Origin: a virus
Strand: one strand, 5' to 3'
DNA: 56,698 bases
Virus record (IMG/VR): IMGVR_UViG_3300042698_000010
Coordinates: 1-56,698 of that record
This document shows, piece after piece, positions 1-56,698 of this stretch (position 1 is its first letter; every line of letters begins with the position of its first letter). The translations under genes were made by a program, and so were the position numbers. The notes beneath the pieces were generated by a model. It was not told the origin of the DNA and ran no database searches. It saw nothing but the letters and a program-made list of their open reading frames with translations.

Positions 1-127
1 GATGGACGCGGTCGACAGCGAGGCTGCCACGCTGTTCGTCAAGATCGAAGGCAAGCTGGCCTTCCAGCCGGTCACCGCGGCGCGGCGCCTCATGGACCGG
101 GCCCCGGCCGCCATCACCGCCGAACGC
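1..127. repeat. 127-bp redundancy, left copy
   Basis: These bases are identical to 56572-56698. The repeat lies inside the primase-helicase gene and keeps its reading frame across the join. The length 127 equals the largest k-mer of common short-read assemblers, so this most likely marks a circularly closed contig and not a biological terminal repeat. Confidence 0.95.
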
Positions 128-1546
128 AACATCGCGATGTACCGGAACGGCGTCTACGGCGTCCACCAGGACGACGTGCTGGCAGCCTTCGTGGGCATGC
201 TGGGCAACTTCTACAGCCCCGGTCACATGAACAGCGCACGGGACGCGCTGATCGGCCAGCTGCACCTGGACGGGCTTCGTCTTCCCGAGCGCATGACCGA
301 GCCGCTGCTGAACTGCCCCAACGGCATGGTGGACCTGCGGACCGGCCAGCTGCTCGATCACGACCCGGCGTACCTCTCGCACATCCAGGTGACGACCGAG
401 TACGCGCCCGACATGGCGACCCCGGTTTACGATGCCTGGCTGCGCGAGGCGCTGCGGCAGGACGGCCACACGGACGCCGATGTGGAAGCCCTGATCGCTG
501 ACCTGGAAGAGACCGCGGGCACCATGCTGGACCCCACCATGACGCCGTCGAAGGCGCTGTTCCTCTTCGGCCCGTCGCGCTCTGGGAAGTCCACCTTCCT
601 GCGGCTGCTGAAGGCCGTGTCGGGCGCCGTCAACACGTCGGCCGTCACGCTGCACGAGCTGGGCGCCGACCAGTTCGCGACGGCCAACCTCTACGGGAAG
701 ATGCTGAACGTCGCGGCCGACCTGAGCAGCGCCCACGTGGCGGACCTGTCGAAGTTCAAGATGGCGACCGGTGAGGATCTGCTGCACGCGAACCGGAAGT
801 ACGGCCAGCAGTTCAGCTTCACCAATCAGGCGCTGTTCGCCTTCAGTGCCAACGAGCTGCCGACGGTGTCCGAGGCAAGCCGCGCGTACGCCGAGCGCAT
901 GAAGCCCTTCAACTTCCCGAACACCTTCGCCGGACGCGAGGACAAGACGCTGGAAGCCAAGCTGCTGGCCGAGCTGCCCGGCATCCTGGCCCGCTGGGTG
1001 AAGGCCTACGGCCGCTACCTGGCGCGCGGCGGCTACGCACCCACGGACGCGGTCACGCAGGCCATGTTCGAAGCGAAGTCGGACCGCGTGGTCCAGTTCT
1101 TCCAGGACATGTGCACGCTGACCGAGGCGGCGCACGGGGCCCGGCTGTCCGACCAGCAGGCGACCGGCCGCCGTGACGTCGCCGTGGCCTTCAACGCGTG
1201 GGCCGAGCGCAACGGCGGCAGCAAGATGGGCGAGCGCGCGTTCTTCCAGCGCTTCGCCCAGATCACCGGGATCAACGACGTGAAGATCGGCCCGAAGGAC
1301 CGGCGCGGCTTCAACGTCACGGTGGCCCGCGCGGACGAGGACGAGTGGTCCGAGGTCGACACCGAGCCGAAGGCCGACCCGATCCCCGCCTCGGGTGTGG
1401 CCTCTGAGGACGACTGGGCTGCCTACGTCGCGTTTTCCGAGGCGTGCCCGGTCCCCGGTGTCACCGCGGGTCTCAACGAGCCGCAGACGGCCGTACACGG
1501 CGCCGACCCCTTCGGCTCGGGTCTCGGTCTCAACTACGATCTGTGA
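1..1546 (+). CDS. Primase-helicase, 3' part (5' end cut by window)
   Basis: This is the C-terminal 515 codons of a replicative primase-helicase. The rest of the gene is at 55934-56698, in the same frame, and the closed circle gives a 727-residue protein. The part here carries the helicase: a Walker A loop GPSRSGKS at about residues 403-410 of the joined protein, preceded by the D5-type linker region seen in phage and plasmid P4-family primases. Such proteins unwind DNA as a ring and make primers at the fork. The DNA polymerase follows one small gene later. The gene ends at a TGA followed by a strong terminator hairpin. Family assignment is by motif only. Confidence 0.88.
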   Translation, partial: MDAVDSEAATLFVKIEGKLAFQPVTAARRLMDRAPAAITAERNIAMYRNGVYGVHQDDVLAAFVGMLGNFYSPGHMNSARDALIGQLHLDGLRLPERMTEPLLNCPNGMVDLRTGQLLDHDPAYLSHIQVTTEYAPDMATPVYDAWLREALRQDGHTDADVEALIADLEETAGTMLDPTMTPSKALFLFGPSRSGKSTFLRLLKAVSGAVNTSAVTLHELGADQFATANLYGKMLNVAADLSSAHVADLSKFKMATGEDLLHANRKYGQQFSFTNQALFAFSANELPTVSEASRAYAERMKPFNFPNTFAGREDKTLEAKLLAELPGILARWVKAYGRYLARGGYAPTDAVTQAMFEAKSDRVVQFFQDMCTLTEAAHGARLSDQQATGRRDVAVAFNAWAERNGGSKMGERAFFQRFAQITGINDVKIGPKDRRGFNVTVARADEDEWSEVDTEPKADPIPASGVASEDDWAAYVAFSEACPVPGVTAGLNEPQTAVHGADPFGSGLGLNYDL

Positions 1547-7228: not shown

Positions 7229-7303
7229 GCCCCCGTAGCTCAGTCTGGCCAGAGCAACCGCGTCGTAAGCGGTCAGCCGCAGGTTCGAATCCTGCCGGGG
7301 GCT
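7229..7303 (+). tRNA. tRNA-Thr (anticodon CGT)
   Basis: A complete cloverleaf: acceptor GCCCCCG/CGGGGGC, D-stem GCTC/GAGC, anticodon stem ACCGC/GCGGT with loop GTCGTAA, and T-arm GCAGG-TTCGAAT-CCTGC. Anticodon CGT reads ACG (Thr). CCA is not encoded. Antisense reading gives the GRIRTCG peptide typical of tRNA-antisense ORFs. Confidence 0.93.
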
Positions 7304-7388: not shown

Positions 7389-7454
7389 GGGACCGCAGCT
7401 TAACGGCCGAGCGGTGTGACGACACAGGTGCGGGTTCGAATCCCGCCGGTCCCA
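7389..7454 (+). tRNA. Short tRNA-like gene, anticodon arm reduced
   Basis: Acceptor GGGACCG/CGGTCCC with discriminator A, D-stem GCTT/GAGC and a canonical T-arm GCGGG-TTCGAAT-CCCGC are all present. Total length is only 66 nt, because the anticodon arm is reduced to TGTG-ACGA-CACA, a 4-bp stem with a 4-base loop. No amino acid can be assigned with confidence. It may be a decaying tRNA or a tRNA mimic. Confidence 0.55.
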
Positions 7455-30428: not shown

Positions 30429-32191
30429 GCCGCCACCGCCTTGACGCGCAGCTGCGCGAGCAGCCGGGGGACGTTGTCGAACTCGTGCGGCTGGCCGGTC
30501 ACCAGCAGCGCGGTGACGTAGTCGTGCAGTGCCGAGGTCAGCTCGATCGAGTCGACGCCGTAGCGAGCTGCGATGACGGGCACGCGCACCCACGCGTCGT
30601 TCAGCAGGCCGAAGGCGTTCACGTCGTCCTCGCTGCGCAGCGGGTGGGACGTGTGAAGGCTGCCGCGGGCGGCCAGCTCACGGGCCGTACCGCGGTTCGG
30701 CCGGGGGACGACCGGGGTGAGCGTCAGCTTGCGGCCAGCGACCACCAGCGCGGACCACACCAGGCCGTCGACCGCTTCGGCGAGCGCTGCATCGGTGCCC
30801 GCGGTGAAGCTGTCGAGAACGGCCTCAGAGGCGGCCAGGGCGGTCTCGTTGGGCGTCCCGGTGTTCGGGGCTGACTGAGTGCTGTCCACGGGCAGGGTGC
30901 CCCCTTCGGGCTGGGTGGTGGCGGTTTGCTGCTCGTCCGGGGTGCTGCCGACGGCGCCCGGTGCGTCCGCCTCGGTGAAGCCGAGCTCACGCCGCGCGGC
31001 CTGGTCGCTGATCAGGCCCAGCTTGAATGCTTCCAGCGCGCTGGCCCCCTTGTTGCTGCTGGCCCGCAGCCCGGACGTGTCGTACCAGACCAGGAACTCG
31101 GCGGCGTTCGCCTCGCCCTCGGACGCCAGGATCGGCTGAAGCCACTGCGTGGTGAGCGACTGGCAGATGAGCGCGAGGCGGGGCTCTGCACCCAGCCGCA
31201 GCGCCTCGGCCGTGATGGCCCACGCGCCCCAGTGGTTCGCGTCGCCCATGCCCAGCAGGATTTCGGCCGGGATGTCGGCGCCAGCGGCGAAGCGGCGCAC
31301 GGCCTCATCGCGCAGCTGAAGGGCCATGGCGTCGAATTCGCTGGTGAACTGAAGCCACTTCACGCCGCTGATCAGGTCGCCGGGAACTTCCAGCACGATC
31401 GGCACGGTGGCGGCAGCGCTGTCCGGCTCACGGATGGCGGTGGACGCCACTTCGATGAACGTGTCCAGCAGCGAGTCTTCCGCACCGTCCTGGCCCGGCT
31501 GTGTCGGGAACCGGGTACCGGCGGGGATCAGCAGGATGCCCCGGCCGGTGATCCGGCTCTTGGCGATGGCGGCCACCGCGGCATTGAGCAGGCGCAGCTC
31601 TTCCAGCACCACCAGAGACCGGATGACGGGGCTGGTGGCCTGGCTGTGGCGGCGCGGGGACGGCTTCCAGATCCGCATGTAAACCGGGGCCGTGGGGTCC
31701 TGCTCGGCCTTCGGGTCGTACTCGGGGATCTCGATCTCTTCCCCGTCGATCACGGCCTTCAGCTTCCCGCGCTGAACGGTGACTTCCTCGGTGGACAGGA
31801 CCACCCAGCGGTCGTCCGCCATGTTGTCCGACTCGGGGGCGGGGATGACGATCAGCCACAGGTCGCCGGTGACGCACAGCTGCGTGCCCGCGTCGCCGAG
31901 CATGACGCCCTGGCCCTCGGGGCCGCCCGCGATGGACGCGACCAGCTCGGCGGCGCGGCTGCCCTCGGCAGCGGGCAGGATCTCACCGTCCGGCCCGCGG
32001 TACCCGGCGAACAGCGTCGCACCGGACATGGCGTTGGACACCCAGTCGCTGAAGGCGCCGACCTCGGGGATCGTCTCGAAGCAATCCCATGCCAGCGTGG
32101 CGCTGCCGTTGCTGGCGCTGTTGGCCGACCCCTTGCCCTTACCGCCCAGCAGCCGCGAGGCGGCCGCGGTGATCGTTGCGATAGCGCTCAT
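30425..32191 (-). CDS. Portal protein
   Basis: The 588-residue product has portal hallmarks: an N-terminal FSDWVSNAMSGATLFAGYRG region, YMRIWKPSPRRHSQATSPV, and a clip-and-stem region with LRLLNAAVAAIAKSRITGRGIL. A membrane-distal ILLGMGDANHWGAWAITAEA stretch follows. It precedes the MuF fusion by 4-base overlap. Portals form the dodecameric DNA gate of the head. ATG 32191 is clear. Confidence 0.9.
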   Translation of the reverse strand: MSAIATITAAASRLLGGKGKGSANSASNGSATLAWDCFETIPEVGAFSDWVSNAMSGATLFAGYRGPDGEILPAAEGSRAAELVASIAGGPEGQGVMLGDAGTQLCVTGDLWLIVIPAPESDNMADDRWVVLSTEEVTVQRGKLKAVIDGEEIEIPEYDPKAEQDPTAPVYMRIWKPSPRRHSQATSPVIRSLVVLEELRLLNAAVAAIAKSRITGRGILLIPAGTRFPTQPGQDGAEDSLLDTFIEVASTAIREPDSAAATVPIVLEVPGDLISGVKWLQFTSEFDAMALQLRDEAVRRFAAGADIPAEILLGMGDANHWGAWAITAEALRLGAEPRLALICQSLTTQWLQPILASEGEANAAEFLVWYDTSGLRASSNKGASALEAFKLGLISDQAARRELGFTEADAPGAVGSTPDEQQTATTQPEGGTLPVDSTQSAPNTGTPNETALAASEAVLDSFTAGTDAALAEAVDGLVWSALVVAGRKLTLTPVVPRPNRGTARELAARGSLHTSHPLRSEDDVNAFGLLNDAWVRVPVIAARYGVDSIELTSALHDYVTALLVTGQPHEFDNVPRLLAQLRVKAVAA

Positions 32192-32538
32192 GCGGCATCA
32201 GCCCGGTGACCGGGGCGGGAATCGTCCCAGCGGTTCAGCAGCGCCTGGACACCGGCGACGGCCCAGCAGTCGACGGCCACGGACCACAGCGGCAGGTTGG
32301 CCCACTGGCCGGTCGCGGTGACGTAGACCAGCACGGTGACCACGGACAGCCAGAAGCCGATGCAGTAGATGCAGCTGATCAGCTGGCGGACGAAGCTGCG
32401 CACCTTGCTCTCGTGACGCCTGGCGTGCCACAGCTCGATCCAGTTCCGGACGGGGTCGCCGATGCTGTCCCATACGAACAGCTGCGTGGCGCGATAGGCG
32501 GCGAAGCCCAGCACGATGACGGTTGCGAGGTGATCCAC
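32188..32538 (-). CDS. DUF1360 membrane protein
   Basis: The 116-residue product matches DUF1360: LGFAAYRATQLFVWDSIGDPVRNW, then CIYCIGFWLSVVTVLVYV with the Cys-x-x-Cys pair, and two more hydrophobic segments. Members occur near phage structural genes, but the role is not known. GTG 32538 overlaps nothing upstream; the gene is coupled to the portal downstream (ATGA). It is the first gene of this late segment, right beside the palindromic locus. Confidence 0.8.
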   Translation of the reverse strand: MDHLATVIVLGFAAYRATQLFVWDSIGDPVRNWIELWHARRHESKVRSFVRQLISCIYCIGFWLSVVTVLVYVTATGQWANLPLWSVAVDCWAVAGVQALLNRWDDSRPGHRADAA

Positions 32539-32650
32539 AGCGTCCCCTTCGGTCGGTCGGTTGCCTGGTCCAGCTTACCGGCGACGGTTCCCGCCACCGC
32601 ACGGCGCAGCCGTGACCGGTCGTACCAGGCAAACCGGACAGGAAGTGGAT

Positions 32651-32982
32651 CTTCCCGCGTTACGGGCCCGCGTTTCCCGGGAAACGCGGGAAGGACGTTT
32701 CCGCAGGTCAGGCCAGGTATTGGGGGTCAATCGCCCGCGTATCCCGACTTTGGTCGGAAGACTAGGACCCGTAAGGGGTTAATACAATGATTGGTACATA
32801 CGACGCCGTTACACAGGGTCACATAACTGCGCCTACTGGGGGGCCGTTCATGTCAAGTGTTCATACCCCGCTCAGCTCAAAGTGTTGGGCCGAAACTCGG
32901 GTAACGCGGGAATCCGGGCTCTAAAGGCCCTCTGACCTGCGGAAACGGTTTCCCGGGAAACGCGGGACCGTTTCGCGGGAAG
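32651..32982. other. Palindromic noncoding locus A (duplicate of locus B)
   Basis: The 526-bp gap between divergent genes (32539-33064) holds no ORF of note. It does hold a 332-bp element that shares most of its sequence with 55345-55675. It starts CTTCCCGCG and ends TTTCGCGGGAAG. Both flanks carry TTTCCCGGGAAA and GACCTGCGGAAAC or its inverse, so the element is roughly self-complementary. The core has TTAATACAATG and TGGTACATA, the most AT-rich stretch around, and the right half has CCCCGCTCAGCTCAAAGTGT, as in locus B. Candidates are an origin, a centromere or clt-like site, or a recombination site. Confidence 0.85.
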
Positions 32983-33064: not shown

Positions 33065-33688
33065 ATGAACACGACCCACGCCGCAGCCGGTGTCTACTTC
33101 CCCGTCACCGAGCAGGACGACGTGCTGGTGAACCTCACCCTTCAGGGCCAGGTGATCCGGGCCGACGTCTACGCCGATGGCGCCTACACCGTCTGGGCGG
33201 GCTTCGAGTCCATCGCCACCGGCCAGCTGAACGGGACCGAGGGCCCGCTGATGGTCTTCTTCGCGGCCGAGGCGATGGTCTGGTCCTACGGCATCGACAC
33301 CGACCGAGAGGCCAACGCCGCCGCCGCCGAGCTGGCCGCCACGATCGAGCACGTGGACGCCAACGAGGTCAGCGAGGCGGTTGCCCAGGTCCGCGCCGAC
33401 GGTGCCGAGAAGCTGGCCGAGGCTGCCGAGATGGAAGCGCAGGGCAACGAGCCGATCGTGATCGCGGTCCGCCGCAACGGCGAGGTCCGGGGCCACCGCA
33501 AGATCGGCGCATGGGACCCGCGCCACCCCGCCCGTGCTGCCGCGTCCGTCCGCCGGGCCGGTGAGCGCCTGTCCCGCTGGACACAGGCTGACGAGGACGC
33601 CTACGGCCGCTACGTCTCGGACGGCCTGGCCGACACCGACGGCTACTACGCACCGCTGGACCGGGCGGCCTGGTCCTACGGCCGGTAG
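33065..33688 (+). CDS. Hypothetical protein in plus-strand island, 207 aa
   Basis: A single gene opposing the late operon, with its own promoter, leader and terminator. The N-terminal half is beta-like (VLVNLTLQGQVIRADVYADG). The middle is an Ala/Glu-rich helix (ANAAAAELAATIEHVDANEV), and the C-terminal part is rich in Tyr, Asp and Arg. No family is recognised. The same promoter type drives the early or accessory genes, so it is probably expressed with them rather than with the virion genes. Confidence 0.75.
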   Translation: MNTTHAAAGVYFPVTEQDDVLVNLTLQGQVIRADVYADGAYTVWAGFESIATGQLNGTEGPLMVFFAAEAMVWSYGIDTDREANAAAAELAATIEHVDANEVSEAVAQVRADGAEKLAEAAEMEAQGNEPIVIAVRRNGEVRGHRKIGAWDPRHPARAAASVRRAGERLSRWTQADEDAYGRYVSDGLADTDGYYAPLDRAAWSYGR

Positions 33689-42457: not shown

Positions 42458-42522
42458 CTTGCAGCCTCGCACCGGCCGCCCTGCGGCCAACGGTCCGGCC
42501 GCCCACTGACCTGCGGAAACGG

Positions 42523-44614: not shown

Positions 44615-45625
44615 TCAGTCCAGGCCGAGCACGTCGTTCGGGTGGTACATCGGGACCCCGTCGACCATGGTGTAGGGCAGCCGCCCGCGGTGCTTCAGCG
44701 AGCGGATCGTTCCGGGGGCGCAGCCCTTCAGCGCGGCCGCCTCGGCCGTGGTCAGCAGCTTCACCGTGGGGTCGCTGGTGACGGCCAGCTCGGCCTCGGC
44801 CATGGCGGCGGCCAGCGTATCCTCACGGTCCTGGCTGTGAAGCTGGACGCCGCGGAAGTAGTCGGCGATCGGCGCACGCGAGATGCTGCGGTATCCGCCG
44901 TTGTCCTCGGCCTTGTACGGCCCCTCAGACGCCTCGGGCGCAGCAGCCGGGGTGATGGACCGGGCAGCCGGTGCGGGGGCCACAGCGGGCCGCTCAGGGC
45001 CCGTGGCGGTACCGGCGAGCACGGCGGCCAGGTTGGCGTCCGCGCCCTGGCTGATCCGATAGCGCTGGATCTCACCGAGCTGGACCGAGAGCTGAGCGTC
45101 CGTGGCGGCGAAGCCCTTCGTCAGCCGCCAGACGGCCGCCTTGCTGAGCTTGCGGCCGAGCCCCTTGCCGTTGGCCGCGCGGTTCGCGTGCCAGAGCAGC
45201 AGGCCGCTGCGCCGCTGCTGCTCGATGTCGGTACCCGTCCGGTAGGCGACGACCCGGCGCGCGACGAAGGCGACGCCCTCACCGGCCGCGGTCATCGCCA
45301 GCGGCGTGAACGCCATGACGACCGCCTCGGCCGTGGTCGGGGCCAGCGCGATGCCGACGCCCGAGGCGGCCAGCGGCACCAGCCACATGCCCGCTCGGAC
45401 CGTGGCGGGGGTGTGCTGCCCCATGAGCGTGACGGCCAGCGCGACCAGTGCGCAGATGAGCGTTGCGCCCTCACCGGCGGCCACCAGGCCGAGGGCCGAG
45501 GCGCCGCGGTGAAGCACGTGGTTCATGTTGACGTAGGTGGCGACGGCGCCAGCAATGCCGACGGCGGCCATCGGGGTGGCGGCCAGCGCGAGGACGGCTG
45601 TCTGGCCCTTCGTGAGCTTCAGCAT
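44615..45625 (-). CDS. DUF2637/SpdB-like membrane protein with C-terminal HTH
   Basis: The 336-residue product has four hydrophobic segments in its first half (TAVLALAATPMAAVGIAGAV, GEGATLICALVALAVTLMG, TVRAGMWLVPLAASGVGIAL, AVVMAFTPLAMTAAGEGVAF), then a basic cytosolic region. It ends with a MerR/excise-type HTH (LLTTAEAAALKGCAPGTIRS followed by a wing). The membrane half resembles DUF2637 proteins of actinomycete mobile elements, including SpdB-type plasmid spread proteins. ATG 45625 has GAGAGG upstream. With the FtsK-like gene it suggests a DNA-transfer or anchoring function. The DUF call is by eye. Confidence 0.7.
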   Translation of the reverse strand: MLKLTKGQTAVLALAATPMAAVGIAGAVATYVNMNHVLHRGASALGLVAAGEGATLICALVALAVTLMGQHTPATVRAGMWLVPLAASGVGIALAPTTAEAVVMAFTPLAMTAAGEGVAFVARRVVAYRTGTDIEQQRRSGLLLWHANRAANGKGLGRKLSKAAVWRLTKGFAATDAQLSVQLGEIQRYRISQGADANLAAVLAGTATGPERPAVAPAPAARSITPAAAPEASEGPYKAEDNGGYRSISRAPIADYFRGVQLHSQDREDTLAAAMAEAELAVTSDPTVKLLTTAEAAALKGCAPGTIRSLKHRGRLPYTMVDGVPMYHPNDVLGLD

Positions 45626-45642
45626 GATCGTTGCCTCTCGGT

Positions 45643-45834
45643 TCATCGGTGGGTGCGACGCCGGTTGCGTGTGCGTCGCGGTCGGGTGTTGCGGGGGTGC
45701 AGCAGTGCGACGACCAGTGCGACGTTGCACGCGACACCGGTTGCGGTCCACGTCGCATCGGCCGGGGTGGTGGCGATCAGCGCCCAGCTCAGGGCTGCGA
45801 CGGTCCATGCGACGGCGTGCAACGGGCGCTTCAC
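45643..45834 (-). CDS. Small membrane protein, 63 aa
   Basis: GTG 45834 has GAGGGG upstream. Two hydrophobic segments (AVAWTVAALSWALIATT and TGVACNVALVVALLHP) precede a strongly basic tail (RRTRNRRRTHR). It is directly upstream of the DUF2637-like gene, which recalls the small Spd genes of Streptomyces plasmids. Confidence 0.7.
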   Translation of the reverse strand: MKRPLHAVAWTVAALSWALIATTPADATWTATGVACNVALVVALLHPRNTRPRRTRNRRRTHR

Positions 45835-45855
45835 GGCGGGCCCCTCTGCGTTGGG

Positions 45856-45894
45856 GACGGGCGGCCCGGCCTGTCGACATCCGGGCGGCCCGTC
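45856..45894 (-). terminator. Leader hairpin before small membrane gene
   Basis: GACGGGCGGCCCGG pairs with CCGGGCGGCCCGTC with one mismatch around an 11-base loop. It lies between the promoter at 45909-45937 and the gene start, so it is an attenuator-like element. Confidence 0.6.
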
Positions 45895-45908
45895 GTCTTT
45901 CTACTTCC

Positions 45909-45937
45909 AGTGTTGCACCAGCGTCGCAGGCTGTCAA
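45909..45937 (-). promoter_or_regulatory. Candidate promoter, TTGACA-N17-AACACT
   Basis: A perfect -35 with a modest -10, upstream of the small membrane and DUF2637-like genes. It differs from the TTGCxx type of most units. Confidence 0.5.
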
Positions 45938-45969
45938 GCACGGTGTTGCAAGAGGGCGTTGCACGTTGC

Positions 45970-45999
45970 GGCCCCTGTTGCAGTGTCGCAACGGGGGCC
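45970..45999 (-). terminator. Terminator hairpin
   Basis: GGCCCCTGTTGC pairs with GCAACGGGGGCC (one G-U) around a 6-base loop, 3' of the gene at 46011. Confidence 0.75.
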
Positions 46000-46010
46000 G
46001 TGGCAGCGTC

Positions 46011-46976
46011 TCAGTCCAGCGGCCGAGCAACCGTGGTGGTGACCGGCCCGGTGACGCCGAGGTGGCGTGCAACGCCTACAGCGGCCCCCTTCAGGCTGCT
46101 GCTGCTGACGCCGAACCCGAGGGTCGTCCAGCGGCCCCGCAGCAGGGCCACGGCCACCTCTGTCCCGTCAGCGTGGATGATGCCGACCGAGTCGCTGTCC
46201 ATCACGATGCGGACCTCGGTCACGGCGGGCGGCTCGGGCTGCTGCGCGGTCAGCGCCGTTGCAGCTGCGGACAGCTGCTCGGGCGTGAACACGATGCCCG
46301 CCGAGCTGAGGGCGGCCGCCAGGACGTCTTCCTCGGCGTCACCGGCGACTCGGGACGGGTCGACCGCCGGTGCCTCGGTGGTGCTGGTGACCGAGACGGC
46401 GGTGCTGTACTCGCGGGTCACGGTGATCCGGACCGTTCCGGCGAAGCCGTCGCTGCGGGCCAGGCCGTCGGCCGCCGCGGTGACCGAGCCGAAGCCGTCG
46501 CGGTGCCACATGGTCTCGGCGTAGGGGTCCTCGGCGTAGAAGCCCCCGTCGCCATCGGCGCCGATCAGGCCCTGGAAGCCGTCCGCGCCGTGGACCAGGG
46601 CAACGCCCTGGGTCTCGCTCTGCATGTCAACGCTCACCTGCCGGGCCTTGACCGGCTCGGCGTCGGGCTGCTGCGCCTCGGGCTTGGCCGGGGCCAGGTA
46701 GTCGCCCTCGCCGGTCGCGGGCTGCATGCTGGCATCCACGCGGTCCTGGTGCGCCAGCTCGGCCGCCTCTTCGGCCGCCAGCAGCTTCAGGCAGCGCTTG
46801 CAGTCGACATCGGCGGTGGTGACGTAGTACCGCTCGCTGGCCCGGTTGCCACCGCACTGCGGGCTGACACCCCAGCCGTCGTACTTGCGGGCGTAGTGGA
46901 CCTTGCCACTGCCGAGCTTCACAGCCACGCGGGTGAAGGTCTGGCCGCTGCGGTCGGTGTCCGTGGTGCCGATCAT
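46011..46976 (-). CDS. Hypothetical protein, 321 aa
   Basis: ATG 46976 has GAAGGG upstream. The N-terminal part (FTRVAVKLGSGKVHYARKYD, CGGNRASERYYV, CKRCLKLLAAEE) looks like a small zinc-ribbon domain with Cys near CGG and CKRC. The middle is acidic, and the C-terminal half repeats a beta-strand pattern (TVRITVTREYSTAVSVTSTT, AVTEVRIVMDSDSVGIIHAD). No family is recognised. A single-gene unit with a recurrent-type promoter. Confidence 0.75.
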   Translation of the reverse strand: MIGTTDTDRSGQTFTRVAVKLGSGKVHYARKYDGWGVSPQCGGNRASERYYVTTADVDCKRCLKLLAAEEAAELAHQDRVDASMQPATGEGDYLAPAKPEAQQPDAEPVKARQVSVDMQSETQGVALVHGADGFQGLIGADGDGGFYAEDPYAETMWHRDGFGSVTAAADGLARSDGFAGTVRITVTREYSTAVSVTSTTEAPAVDPSRVAGDAEEDVLAAALSSAGIVFTPEQLSAAATALTAQQPEPPAVTEVRIVMDSDSVGIIHADGTEVAVALLRGRWTTLGFGVSSSSLKGAAVGVARHLGVTGPVTTTVARPLD

Positions 46977-48717: not shown

Positions 48718-48746
48718 AAGCTACACGACTCGGGGCCGCAACGCAA
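48718..48746 (-). promoter_or_regulatory. Promoter, TTGCGT-N17-TAGCTT
   Basis: A recurrent-type promoter. Its -35 overlaps the 3' arm of the terminator at 48744-48780 by three bases. Confidence 0.75.
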
Positions 48747-48780
48747 CACCCCGCCAGCAACGGATGCTGACGGGGTGTTG
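48744..48780 (-). terminator. Terminator fused to promoter
   Basis: CAACACCCCGCCAGCA pairs with TGCTGACGGGGTGTTG (one mismatch) around a 5-base loop. GACCTGCGG lies just outside (48791-48799). Confidence 0.8.
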
Positions 48781-48801
48781 TTGCACGTCTGACCTGCGGT
48801 G

Positions 48802-53945: not shown

Positions 53946-53974
53946 ACAGTACAGGCTGCGCCGCGGGAACGCAA
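53946..53974 (-). promoter_or_regulatory. Promoter, TTGCGT-N17-TACTGT
   Basis: A recurrent-type promoter touching the terminator at 53975-54005. Confidence 0.7.
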
Positions 53975-54005
53975 CACCCCGCCAGCAACTGTGGCTGGCG
54001 GGGTG
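53975..54005 (-). terminator. Terminator fused to promoter
   Basis: CACCCCGCCAGC pairs perfectly with GCTGGCGGGGTG around a 7-base loop, 3' of the Cys-rich gene at 54020. Confidence 0.8.
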
Positions 54006-54019
54006 TCGACCTGCGCTGA

Positions 54020-54325: not shown

Positions 54326-54975
54326 CACGCACCGTCCACGCACTCGGTACCGTGCGACGGCTCGGCGCCGCAGCCGGGGCAGACGTCGGCCGGACGGTCG
54401 GACAGCCGCGCGAGGGCGGGCATCCCGTGCACGGGGCACGTGGCGTCCCAGTCGCACGCCGGGCCCTGGCCGCCCGGAAGGATGGGGCAGTCGTCGGCCG
54501 GGCCAGCGTTCAGCTGGGCGGCCGCCCACTCGGTCACCGCTACACGCTGCGAACAGCTGGGCTGGTGCGCCAGCTCGGTGAAGGTGCGCCCCTCGGCCCC
54601 GTACTGGACGTCCGAGTACAGGCCGACCCGAACGCCGCACTCGGGGCAGCGCGGCCGCCACACCGGCGCGCCCCACTTCGAGTCTTCGTAGCGGGCCAGG
54701 TCGGCCACCATGGACTCTTCCACGGCCCATGTGGCACCGCGCTGGATCTGCTCGCCGGTGAGGTACCGGGTGTGCGCCGAGACGCGGTCTTCGAAGTCCT
54801 CGGGGTCGTTCAGGTCGCTCTCGCCGTCGGTGGCCACGGACTTGCCTACGGCCTGGATCATCAGGCCGATCAGGCCGATCAGGTCATCCGCCATGGCGGC
54901 GCGCTTCTCGGGGTCCTGCGTGACGTGCTGCGCGACGTCCAGCGCGGCTGCCTTGAGCTCATCCAGCCGGTTCAC
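54325..54975 (-). CDS. Zinc-finger-like protein, 216 aa
   Basis: GTG 54975 overlaps the upstream stop. A helical N-terminal half (LKAAALDVAQHVTQDPEKRA, DDLIGLIGLMIQAVGKSVAT) is followed by Cys pairs (RCPECGVRVG, CPVHGMPALARLSD, VCPGCGAEP). No family is recognised. It is probably an accessory DNA- or protein-binding factor. Confidence 0.7.
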   Translation of the reverse strand: MNRLDELKAAALDVAQHVTQDPEKRAAMADDLIGLIGLMIQAVGKSVATDGESDLNDPEDFEDRVSAHTRYLTGEQIQRGATWAVEESMVADLARYEDSKWGAPVWRPRCPECGVRVGLYSDVQYGAEGRTFTELAHQPSCSQRVAVTEWAAAQLNAGPADDCPILPGGQGPACDWDATCPVHGMPALARLSDRPADVCPGCGAEPSHGTECVDGA

Positions 54976-55298
54976 TTCTCGGCCCCCTTCGCCTCGGCCA
55001 GCTTCTCGCCGTAGTGCTGCGCCACCAGGTCCTTCATGGCCCGCAGCGTCTTGGCCTGGCGGGCGTCGCGGTACAGGCAGAAGCTGCCGTTGACCCACCC
55101 GCGGGCGACCCACTGGTGCTGCCGGGGCTGGTCGATCACGTAGCGGTAGACATCGTCACCGATGGCGACCTCGGCGTAGTGGGTCATCCCCACCGTGCCC
55201 CAGACCCGCTTCTGCGACCAGGCCAGTGCGCCCGTCGCAAGCTGCTGCTGTACGGCGCCGACCTCGGGCGCCTCGGTGTTCCTCGCGGTGTCGTTCAT
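54972..55298 (-). CDS. Hypothetical protein, 108 aa, leaderless
   Basis: The ATG at 55298 lies 6 bases after a perfect -10 (TAGTCT) and has no ribosome site, so the mRNA should begin at the start codon. The product has a compact alpha-beta middle (HYAEVAIGDDVYRYVIDQPR, WVARGWVNGSFCLYRDARQA) and a helical end. First gene of a three-gene coupled unit beside locus B. No family is recognised. Confidence 0.75.
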   Translation of the reverse strand: MNDTARNTEAPEVGAVQQQLATGALAWSQKRVWGTVGMTHYAEVAIGDDVYRYVIDQPRQHQWVARGWVNGSFCLYRDARQAKTLRAMKDLVAQHYGEKLAEAKGAEK

Positions 55299-55333: not shown

Positions 55334-55344
55334 CTGGTACTGAG

Positions 55345-55675
55345 CTTCCCGCGAAACTTCCCGCGTTTCCCGCGGAACGCGGGAAGGGGTATCACCGCAG
55401 GTCAGGGGGTGTTTCAGGGCCCGCCGTCCCGGGTTTCCCGAGGTTGGCCGGAAAACTAAGACCCCTATAGGTGTTAATACAATGCCTGGTACATAACACC
55501 CACGAATCCGGACATACAGCACCAACGCGCGCGGGCATGAACAGATCAAGTAGTTGATACCCCGCTCAGCTCAAAGTGTTCAGCCGAAAGTTGGGAAACC
55601 CGGGACATCCGACCCTAAAGGGCCTCTGACCTGCGGAAACGGTTTCCCGGGAAACGCGGGAAGTTTCGCGGGAAG
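55345..55675. other. Palindromic noncoding locus B (duplicate of locus A)
   Basis: The 635-bp gap 55299-55933 lies between divergent units and contains this 331-bp element plus the primase leader. It begins CTTCCCGCGAAA and ends TTTCGCGGGAAG, perfect 12-bp terminal inverted repeats, and carries TTCCCGCG three times in its left arm. It shares with locus A the TTAATACAATG and TGGTACATA core, CCCCGCTCAGCTCAAAGTGT, and CTGACCTGCGGAAACGG followed by TTTCCCGGGAAACGCGGGA. The 18 bases CGCGGGAAGATCCACTTC (55667-55684) are the exact inverse of 32642-32659 at the opposite edge of locus A. Confidence 0.85.
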
Positions 55676-55797
55676 ATCCACTTCGGGCCCGGCGTGGCGT
55701 CAGCCGGTCGGCCCGCAGGGGTACAGTGGACACGCCGTCAGCGGCCCGCCCGGTCCCGCTGCCCCTGGCCACACGAGTGGTCGTCTCTGAGCAGCGG

Positions 55798-55933: not shown

Positions 55934-56698
55934 GTGGCCATCACTTCAGCCCACATGGACATGCTGCGAGGCAGCGCTATCAGCGAGGACGTCATCGCGG
56001 CCAGCGGCATTGAGTCGCGCGAGGACGGCCTGTACTTCCCGTGGGCGGACGGCGTCGGCGCCACCGTGTGGCAGGCCCGGCCGGACAGCCCCCGCACCAG
56101 CACGGACGGGAAGCCGATCAAGTACGAGTTCCCGAAGGGTGCGAAGGTCCCCTTCAACCGGCTGCGCGACGGGGACGACTACAGCCAGGTGATCCTGGCC
56201 GAGGGCACGAAGCAGCAGTACGCGGTGCTCTCGCACGCACCCGCCACCTTCGCCGTCTACGGCATGTCCGGGTGTTGGGGCTTCAGCCACGCTGACCTGT
56301 CCGTCCTGTCCGGCCGTGACGTCTTCCTGCTGCTGGACGCGGACTTCGAGACCAACGCGGATGTCTGGCTGGCGGCCGAGAAGCTGACGAAGCTGGCCAA
56401 GCGCAGCGGCGCCAAGTCGGTCCGCTACGTCGGCACCACCGGTACGGGCAAGCAGGGCGTTGACGACGTGCTGGCCGCCCTGCCTGAGGACAAGCGGGCA
56501 GCCTCGCTGCGCACCTGGCTGGCCACCGCGGCCGAGAAGCTCGGCCGCCGCCCGAAGGCGAAGGCGGCCGAGATGGACGCGGTCGACAGCGAGGCTGCCA
56601 CGCTGTTCGTCAAGATCGAAGGCAAGCTGGCCTTCCAGCCGGTCACCGCGGCGCGGCGCCTCATGGACCGGGCCCCGGCCGCCATCACCGCCGAACGC
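55934..56698 (+). CDS. Primase-helicase, 5' part (3' end cut by window)
   Basis: The GTG at 55934 has GAAGGG 10 bases upstream, which decides the start. The part here encodes a DUF3854/Toprim-like primase region: VILAEG with Glu90, then LLLDAD with Asp135 and Asp137, the acidic triad of Toprim domains, and a spacer into the helicase. It continues in frame at window position 2. The unit lies next to locus B, where replication functions would be expected if that locus is an origin. Confidence 0.9.
   Translation, partial: MAITSAHMDMLRGSAISEDVIAASGIESREDGLYFPWADGVGATVWQARPDSPRTSTDGKPIKYEFPKGAKVPFNRLRDGDDYSQVILAEGTKQQYAVLSHAPATFAVYGMSGCWGFSHADLSVLSGRDVFLLLDADFETNADVWLAAEKLTKLAKRSGAKSVRYVGTTGTGKQGVDDVLAALPEDKRAASLRTWLATAAEKLGRRPKAKAAEMDAVDSEAATLFVKIEGKLAFQPVTAARRLMDRAPAAITAER
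56572..56698. repeat. 127-bp redundancy, right copy
   Basis: Identical to 1-127. Removing one copy closes the genome at about 56,571 bp. Confidence 0.95.

Follow-up and report, generated by a model that had tools for sequence, protein, structure and literature searches.

The viral record IMGVR_UViG_3300042698_000010 (56,698 nucleotides; the window, meaning the whole stretch of DNA analysed here) carries two noncoding loci, A (32651-32982) and B (55342-55678), each of which is an end-to-end quasi-palindrome of ~330 bp. Their sequence, together with that of their counterparts in related phages, suggests that they are probably copies of a multi-copy, orientation-independent origin-type site at which the phage's own primase-helicase would load itself. 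Matches of the terminase, portal, primase and helicase identify the window as a Streptomyces phage of the genus Woodruffvirus (actinobacteriophage cluster BG). An exact terminal direct repeat of 127 bp (1-127 = 56572-56698) points to a complete circular genome of about 56,571 bp; published BG phages are reported to be circularly permuted (PMC11536984, PMC5511901). The primase-helicase gene spans the ends of this circular record, its start lying at the far end, where it adjoins locus B. The literature found on cluster BG Streptomyces phages apparently describes no origin of replication, and the GC skew of the genome is without clear signal.

Loci A and B and their counterparts in related phages

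Loci A and B share 77% identity over 334 bp (E 7.8e-58), a similarity well beyond chance, and all the shared blocks quoted in the first-pass annotation of the window were found at both. After the terminal repeat they form the strongest repeat in the window, the main tiles scoring 130-173 bits against at most 54 bits for any tile elsewhere. The end-to-end self-complementarity proposed at the same time is borne out by the inverted arms, which comprise 35 nt at 91% plus 16 nt at 100% in A and 37 nt at 92% plus 14 nt at 93% in B, and by folding of the single-stranded DNA, where the z-scores of A (-8.9) and B (-10.3) both lie beyond every dinucleotide-preserving shuffle. On the plus strand, the left arm of A (32651-32711) consists of TTCCCGCG units, the palindrome GTTTCCCGGGAAAC and a GCAGGTCAG box at 32703-32711, and its right arm (32932-32982) begins with a CTGACCTGC box at 32932-32940, followed by GTTTCCCGGGAAAC and CGCGGGAA units. 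The left arm of B (55342-55405) holds three direct and one inverted TTCCCGCG unit and a GCAGGTCAG box at 55397-55405, the right arm (55626-55678) a CTGACCTGC box at 55626-55634 with GTTTCCCGGGAAAC and CGCGGGAA units. Between the arms, also on the plus strand, lies a conserved core of the form TTAATACAATG..TGGTACATA (32779-32800 in A, where it is AT-rich, and 55474-55495 in B). The GC content of both cores falls in the lowest 0.04% of the genome, and the central 100 bp of A are 50% GC. Ten of the 17 copies of TTCCCGCG in the window are inside the two elements, which make up 1.2% of the genome.

A structured RNA family was dropped as the identity of the loci, since an Rfam scan of the window returned two tRNAs only, with no model matching at A or B; the two tRNA genes of the window are at 7229-7303 and 7389-7454. 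A separate 39-bp repeat (90% identity) occurs at 48740-48778 and 53968-54006.

When searched with blastn for near matches, plasmids gave none and the phage collection a single species, phiSAJS1. Elements are present in all complete relatives examined, always three of them and in identical gaps: beside the portal operon (site 1, the position of locus A), before the minor-tail genes (site 2), and between the primase and helicase operons (site 3, the position of locus B). By sequence search, phiSAJS1 and the metagenomic phages G003 and G004 were found to have three elements each; G005 yielded two, its third position coinciding with the contig ends. An inverted-repeat search that used no template found three each in TP1604, YDN12, Xkcd426, Mischief19, Geonosis and Abt2graduatex2, whose arms are unlike those of the window in sequence. 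Homologous elements occupy the same gap as locus A in phiSAJS1, TP1604, YDN12, Xkcd426, Mischief19, G003 and G004. The first-pass count of two loci is therefore right for the window but not as a rule: the window lacks the element before the minor-tail genes, its site 2 gap measuring only 93 bp, and has kept sites 1 and 3.

The anatomy common to all these elements is a pair of inverted arms built from a phage-specific repeat, a GCAGGTCAG box in each arm, and a core. The repeat itself varies by phage, being TTCCCGCG, TTCTGCC(AC) or GCATGCTSWGTGAA, with nothing in common between the classes, and the orientation of the GCAGGTCAG box within the arms also differs among phages. Core AT-richness is strong in A and B, and in most of these phages the core is AT-rich. 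The repeats are nearly confined to the elements, which hold 22/22 copies of GCATGCTSWGTGAA in Mischief19 and 6/7 copies of GTGGCAGAA in TP1604. Copies inside one genome are homogenised, and in G003, G004, Xkcd426 and Mischief19 whole cores are turned round in one copy relative to another while remaining 96-100% identical. The earlier description of the cores as lying in the same orientation accordingly holds in the window phage but not in relatives, where whole elements are mutually inverted. Its suggestion that arms had recombined was prompted by the 18-base outer flank of A (32642-32659), which is indeed the exact reverse complement of 55667-55684, and is backed by homogenisation within genomes and by inversion of whole elements in place.

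Co-variation of the arm repeat with the primase-helicase

Site 3 lies directly upstream of the primase-helicase gene, and the C-terminal 514 aa of the protein are encoded at 2-1546 (+). The protein belongs to the P4 family (TIGR01613, E 3.8e-48; D5_N, E 7.4e-11; DUF5906). D5_N and DUF5906 were matched in 11/11 scanned members, a TOPRIM-like DUF3854 was found in the primase-helicases of most relatives, and among proteins of solved structure the closest in sequence is a 'DNA primase' (7ola/7om0, E 4e-10). A C-terminal domain predicted to read DNA is encoded at 1133-1327 (+), corresponding to ~residues 378-442; residues 359-422 match Pox_D5 weakly.

A phage protein that reads the arm repeat would be expected to have a reader domain that tracks the repeat class. 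In the seven TTCCCGCG genomes (7/7) the primase C-terminus has FFQR and a wing longer by one residue, KxRR, in the form GxK(D/Q)RR, and in the genomes with other arms (7/7) it has FFNR and a short wing; the tracking residues of the window protein are H378, Q416 and the wing KDRR around 432-435. Repeat class and primase C-terminus agree in 14/14 genomes, five of which were not used in spotting the rule. Moreover, among 34 shared protein families the densest cluster of class-marking residues is in the primase C-terminal domain, and a comparison of gene presence and absence gave no convincing candidate for a class-specific gene. The helicase-core tree does not recover the TTCCCGCG group as a single clade (p-AU 0.04): G005 is placed beside TP1604/Xkcd426, and Mischief19 on the side of the window; the tree has three class changes, at least two of which are forced by well-supported branches. 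Since the group is not a single clade, the arm repeat and the primase C-terminal domain appear to have switched jointly at least twice.

We suggest that these are origin-type cis elements, normally three per Woodruffvirus genome and present in two copies in the window, whose arm repeats would be recognised by a winged-helix-like domain at the C-terminus of the primase-helicase. The protein would assemble symmetrically on both arms, the core would be melted and the primase-helicase would load itself, and replication would start in both directions, with two or three equivalent sites available in each genome. Binding to both arms and self-loading at several sites would together explain the symmetry of the elements, their multiplicity, their tolerance of inversion, their homogenisation and their change in lock-step with the protein. 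Because one protein would serve all copies, these could be kept alike by recombination, flip harmlessly and change their repeat along with the protein. Of the functions raised in the first-pass annotation, the origin is the one that survives best, although it had spoken of paired origins where relatives have three elements per genome. The likely reader is also different: variants of the helix-turn-helix (HTH) proteins it had named do not track the arm class, whereas the primase C-terminus does.

Alternatives and the weight of the evidence

The elements might instead be bidirectional transcription-control modules, the arms being operators or activator sites for promoters of the flanking divergent operons and the three copies co-ordinating the three main transcription blocks. 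Every site does sit in an operon gap. Locus A lies between the gp10/portal operon, whose first gene is at 32188-32538 (-), and a divergent gene for a 207-aa protein (33065-33688, +) that adjoins the tape-measure gene; locus B lies between the helicase operon (-), with an open reading frame at 54972-55298 (-) on that side, and the primase-helicase operon (+). A promoter-like sequence, TTGAC(C/T/G)-N17/18-TAnnnT, is found ~15-45 bp outside the right arm of site 3 in TP1604, YDN12, Xkcd426 and G004, and shared multi-copy operators are common in phages. However, the elements flip freely, sites 1 and 2 of TP1604 have no annotated left-side gene to serve, and a mirror array of ~330 bp exceeds the usual operator size. 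Nor do the proteins that might act as regulators (a WhiB-like protein, a MerR-like HTH protein, a 71-aa HTH protein and a 229-aa protein) track the repeat class, which the primase tracks best, and we regard transcription control as an unlikely primary function. The HTH protein encoded at 44615-46072 (-) came top in a crude identity test but was rejected as reader, its variants not tracking the arm class and its score deriving in part from a copy that is truncated in the phiSAJS1 record. It is a conserved protein in which apparent membrane helices are combined, unusually, with a C-terminal MerR-like HTH.

Passive persistence of the elements, as recombination hot spots or MITE-like palindromes maintained by recombination and homogenisation with no dedicated reader, would fit the strong homogenisation and flipping and the wide occurrence of the GCAGGTCAG box between genes in Actinobacteria. 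It would also fit rearrangement at the sites: in phiSAJS1 (KT989433.2, 4.2-7.3 kb and 17.8-22.3 kb) the tail-gene and tape-measure blocks to the left of sites 1 and 2 have changed places relative to TP1604, and the 207-aa gene adjoins site 1 or site 2 in relatives. Such elements would hardly be expected to keep fixed synteny in all complete relatives, one lost site excepted, to have their repeat replaced wholesale while the architecture is kept, or to co-vary with the primase C-terminus, which makes this account improbable. A centromere- or clt-like site, for partition or for the FtsK/TraB-type DNA motor that the first-pass annotation had in mind, appears highly improbable. Most of these phages do have an FtsK-like gene, and inverted arrays of an asymmetric 8-mer about a centre resemble motor-orienting sequences, but phiSAJS1, with its three elements, lacks an FtsK-like gene. 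Nor is motor subtype tied to arm class: the motor of G005, which has TTCCCGCG arms, is of the TP1604 type, and that of Mischief19, whose arms are different, is of the window type. The motor was rejected as reader on these two grounds. As to partition, ParA/ParB were not recognised among the window proteins scanned, and Geonosis, the one characterised member, is predicted to be strictly virulent (PMC11536984).

Several points weigh against the elements being origins read by the primase-helicase. Three origins per phage genome would be unusual, and site 2 is dispensable, being absent from the window. The core of phiSAJS1 is not AT-rich, and the promoter-like sequences outside the right arm of site 3 mean that a regulatory role is also possible, in addition or instead. 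Three actinophage contigs with similar elements (L098, L131 and L147, described below) show no D5_N gene, although they may be incomplete. The Pox_D5 match at the C-terminus is weak and was obtained in only 4/11 members, and AlphaFold models of the primase are of such low confidence that they could not confirm a winged helix. Few residues co-vary, and these depend on two or three evolutionary switches; the TTCCCGCG clade is rejected by a narrow margin (p 0.04); and the 5-versus-4 split of the classes is not exceptionally common when all proteins are considered, occurring in 23 columns, with 27/126 splits equally or more frequent. The C-terminal domain had, in addition, been noticed before the formal scan. 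With numbers this modest and a domain spotted ahead of the scan, we take the co-variation as support for the primase-helicase as reader and not as proof.

Known systems and the box beyond these phages

The α protein of phage P4 combines a TOPRIM-type primase, an SF3 helicase and a C-terminal origin-binding domain, and acts with two cis sites, ori and crr. The Woodruffvirus system resembles it in the primase-helicase layout, with a putative C-terminal origin-binding domain, and in that its repeats are spread over two or more separate cis sites, but P4, a satellite, has ori and crr in one copy each, in contrast to three equivalent mirror-symmetric elements in a virulent phage of ~57 kb. Herpesviruses have three palindromic origins per genome (oriS/oriL) in divergent promoter gaps, with initiator sites on both arms and an AT-rich centre; here the likeness is one of analogy, with no homology of initiator or sequence. 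The helicases of SaPI (Rep) and SCC (Cch2) bind the iterons or repeats of their origins through a C-terminal domain (PMC7581432). They share the Primase_Cterm/D5 helicase family with the phage protein, and their short repeats, read by the helicase C-terminal domain and specific to their own initiator, find a probable parallel in the arm repeats. The SaPI/SCC origin, however, is single and lies just downstream of its gene, whereas the phage elements come in two or three copies, of which one precedes the gene and the rest are distant, and unlike that origin are end-to-end quasi-palindromes. The stem-loop origin of plasmid pRN1 (PMC4234260) is comparable in that its architecture is conserved and its sequence poorly so, and in that its primase-SF3-winged-helix protein has a probable counterpart in the phage primase-helicase; it differs in being a 100-bp single stem-loop without iterons, present in one copy, and in the archaeal primase domain of its protein. 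P4 itself has an origin-binding domain of the winged-helix type (Yeo et al., cited in PMC4234260).

The GCAGGTCAG box is common to all elements and is also an Actinobacteria-wide intergenic motif. We found no named element that corresponds to A and B, as the first-pass annotation had supposed, but unrelated actinophages also have the box and elements of this general design: contigs L098 (2540-2830), L131 (13190-13480) and L172 (12000-12230) have the same design with GTAGTCAC units, and L147 (8700-9000) has it with AAAAGTGGCAC units. The element of L172 adjoins a Prim-Pol/D5 gene, which favours the origin reading. CTCTGACCTGCGGAAACG, the left half and loop of a hairpin CTCTGACCTGCG-GAAA-CGCAGGTCAGAG, occurs in bacterial genomes (L213-L292) and viral contigs (L093-L172). 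Among the matches listed, all but one of 80 bacterial loci are from Actinomycetota and most are intergenic, after tRNAs or beside a recombinase gene; four, each from a different actinobacterial genus (L247, L260, L271, L276), appear from DnaA-box-like sequence to lie in dnaA-dnaN origin regions. Lone CTGACCTGC boxes stand just past stop codons and ahead of terminator-like hairpins in the window (42506-42514 and 48789-48797), and likewise in Mischief19 (54348, 62177, 65404), TP1604 (44096) and Xkcd426 (38348, 49825, 61743). A literature search on the motif string gave no relevant match. The analysis brings to light a short motif between genes, CTGACCTGCGGAAAC, which occurs repeatedly in Actinomycetota and in their phages and for which no explanation was found.

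Two distant relatives, G009 (IMGVR 3300027711_000002, 10.2-11.0 kb) and G010 (3300031548_000006, 26.8-27.6 kb), have one long noncoding region each, with three GCAGGTCAG boxes and many ATGGTTG/GTGGCAG repeats; their primase is of a different type (RepB_primase plus DUF3987).

A broader proposal, which we advance tentatively and consider doubtful as a whole, is that the genus replicates from a trio of palindromic origins that are interchangeable and invertible, a single self-loading primase-helicase reading all of them and origin code and reader changing in lock-step, and that the conserved GCAGGTCAG box marks a wider class of such elements in actinophages, exploiting an unrecognised signal found throughout Actinobacteria. 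If the origin reading is right, these phages, which can be obtained from culture collections (for example Geonosis, DSM 114972), would provide a natural series of matched origin/initiator pairs with differing codes, in which initiator specificity could be tested directly, as could the reliance of one phage on several equivalent origins.
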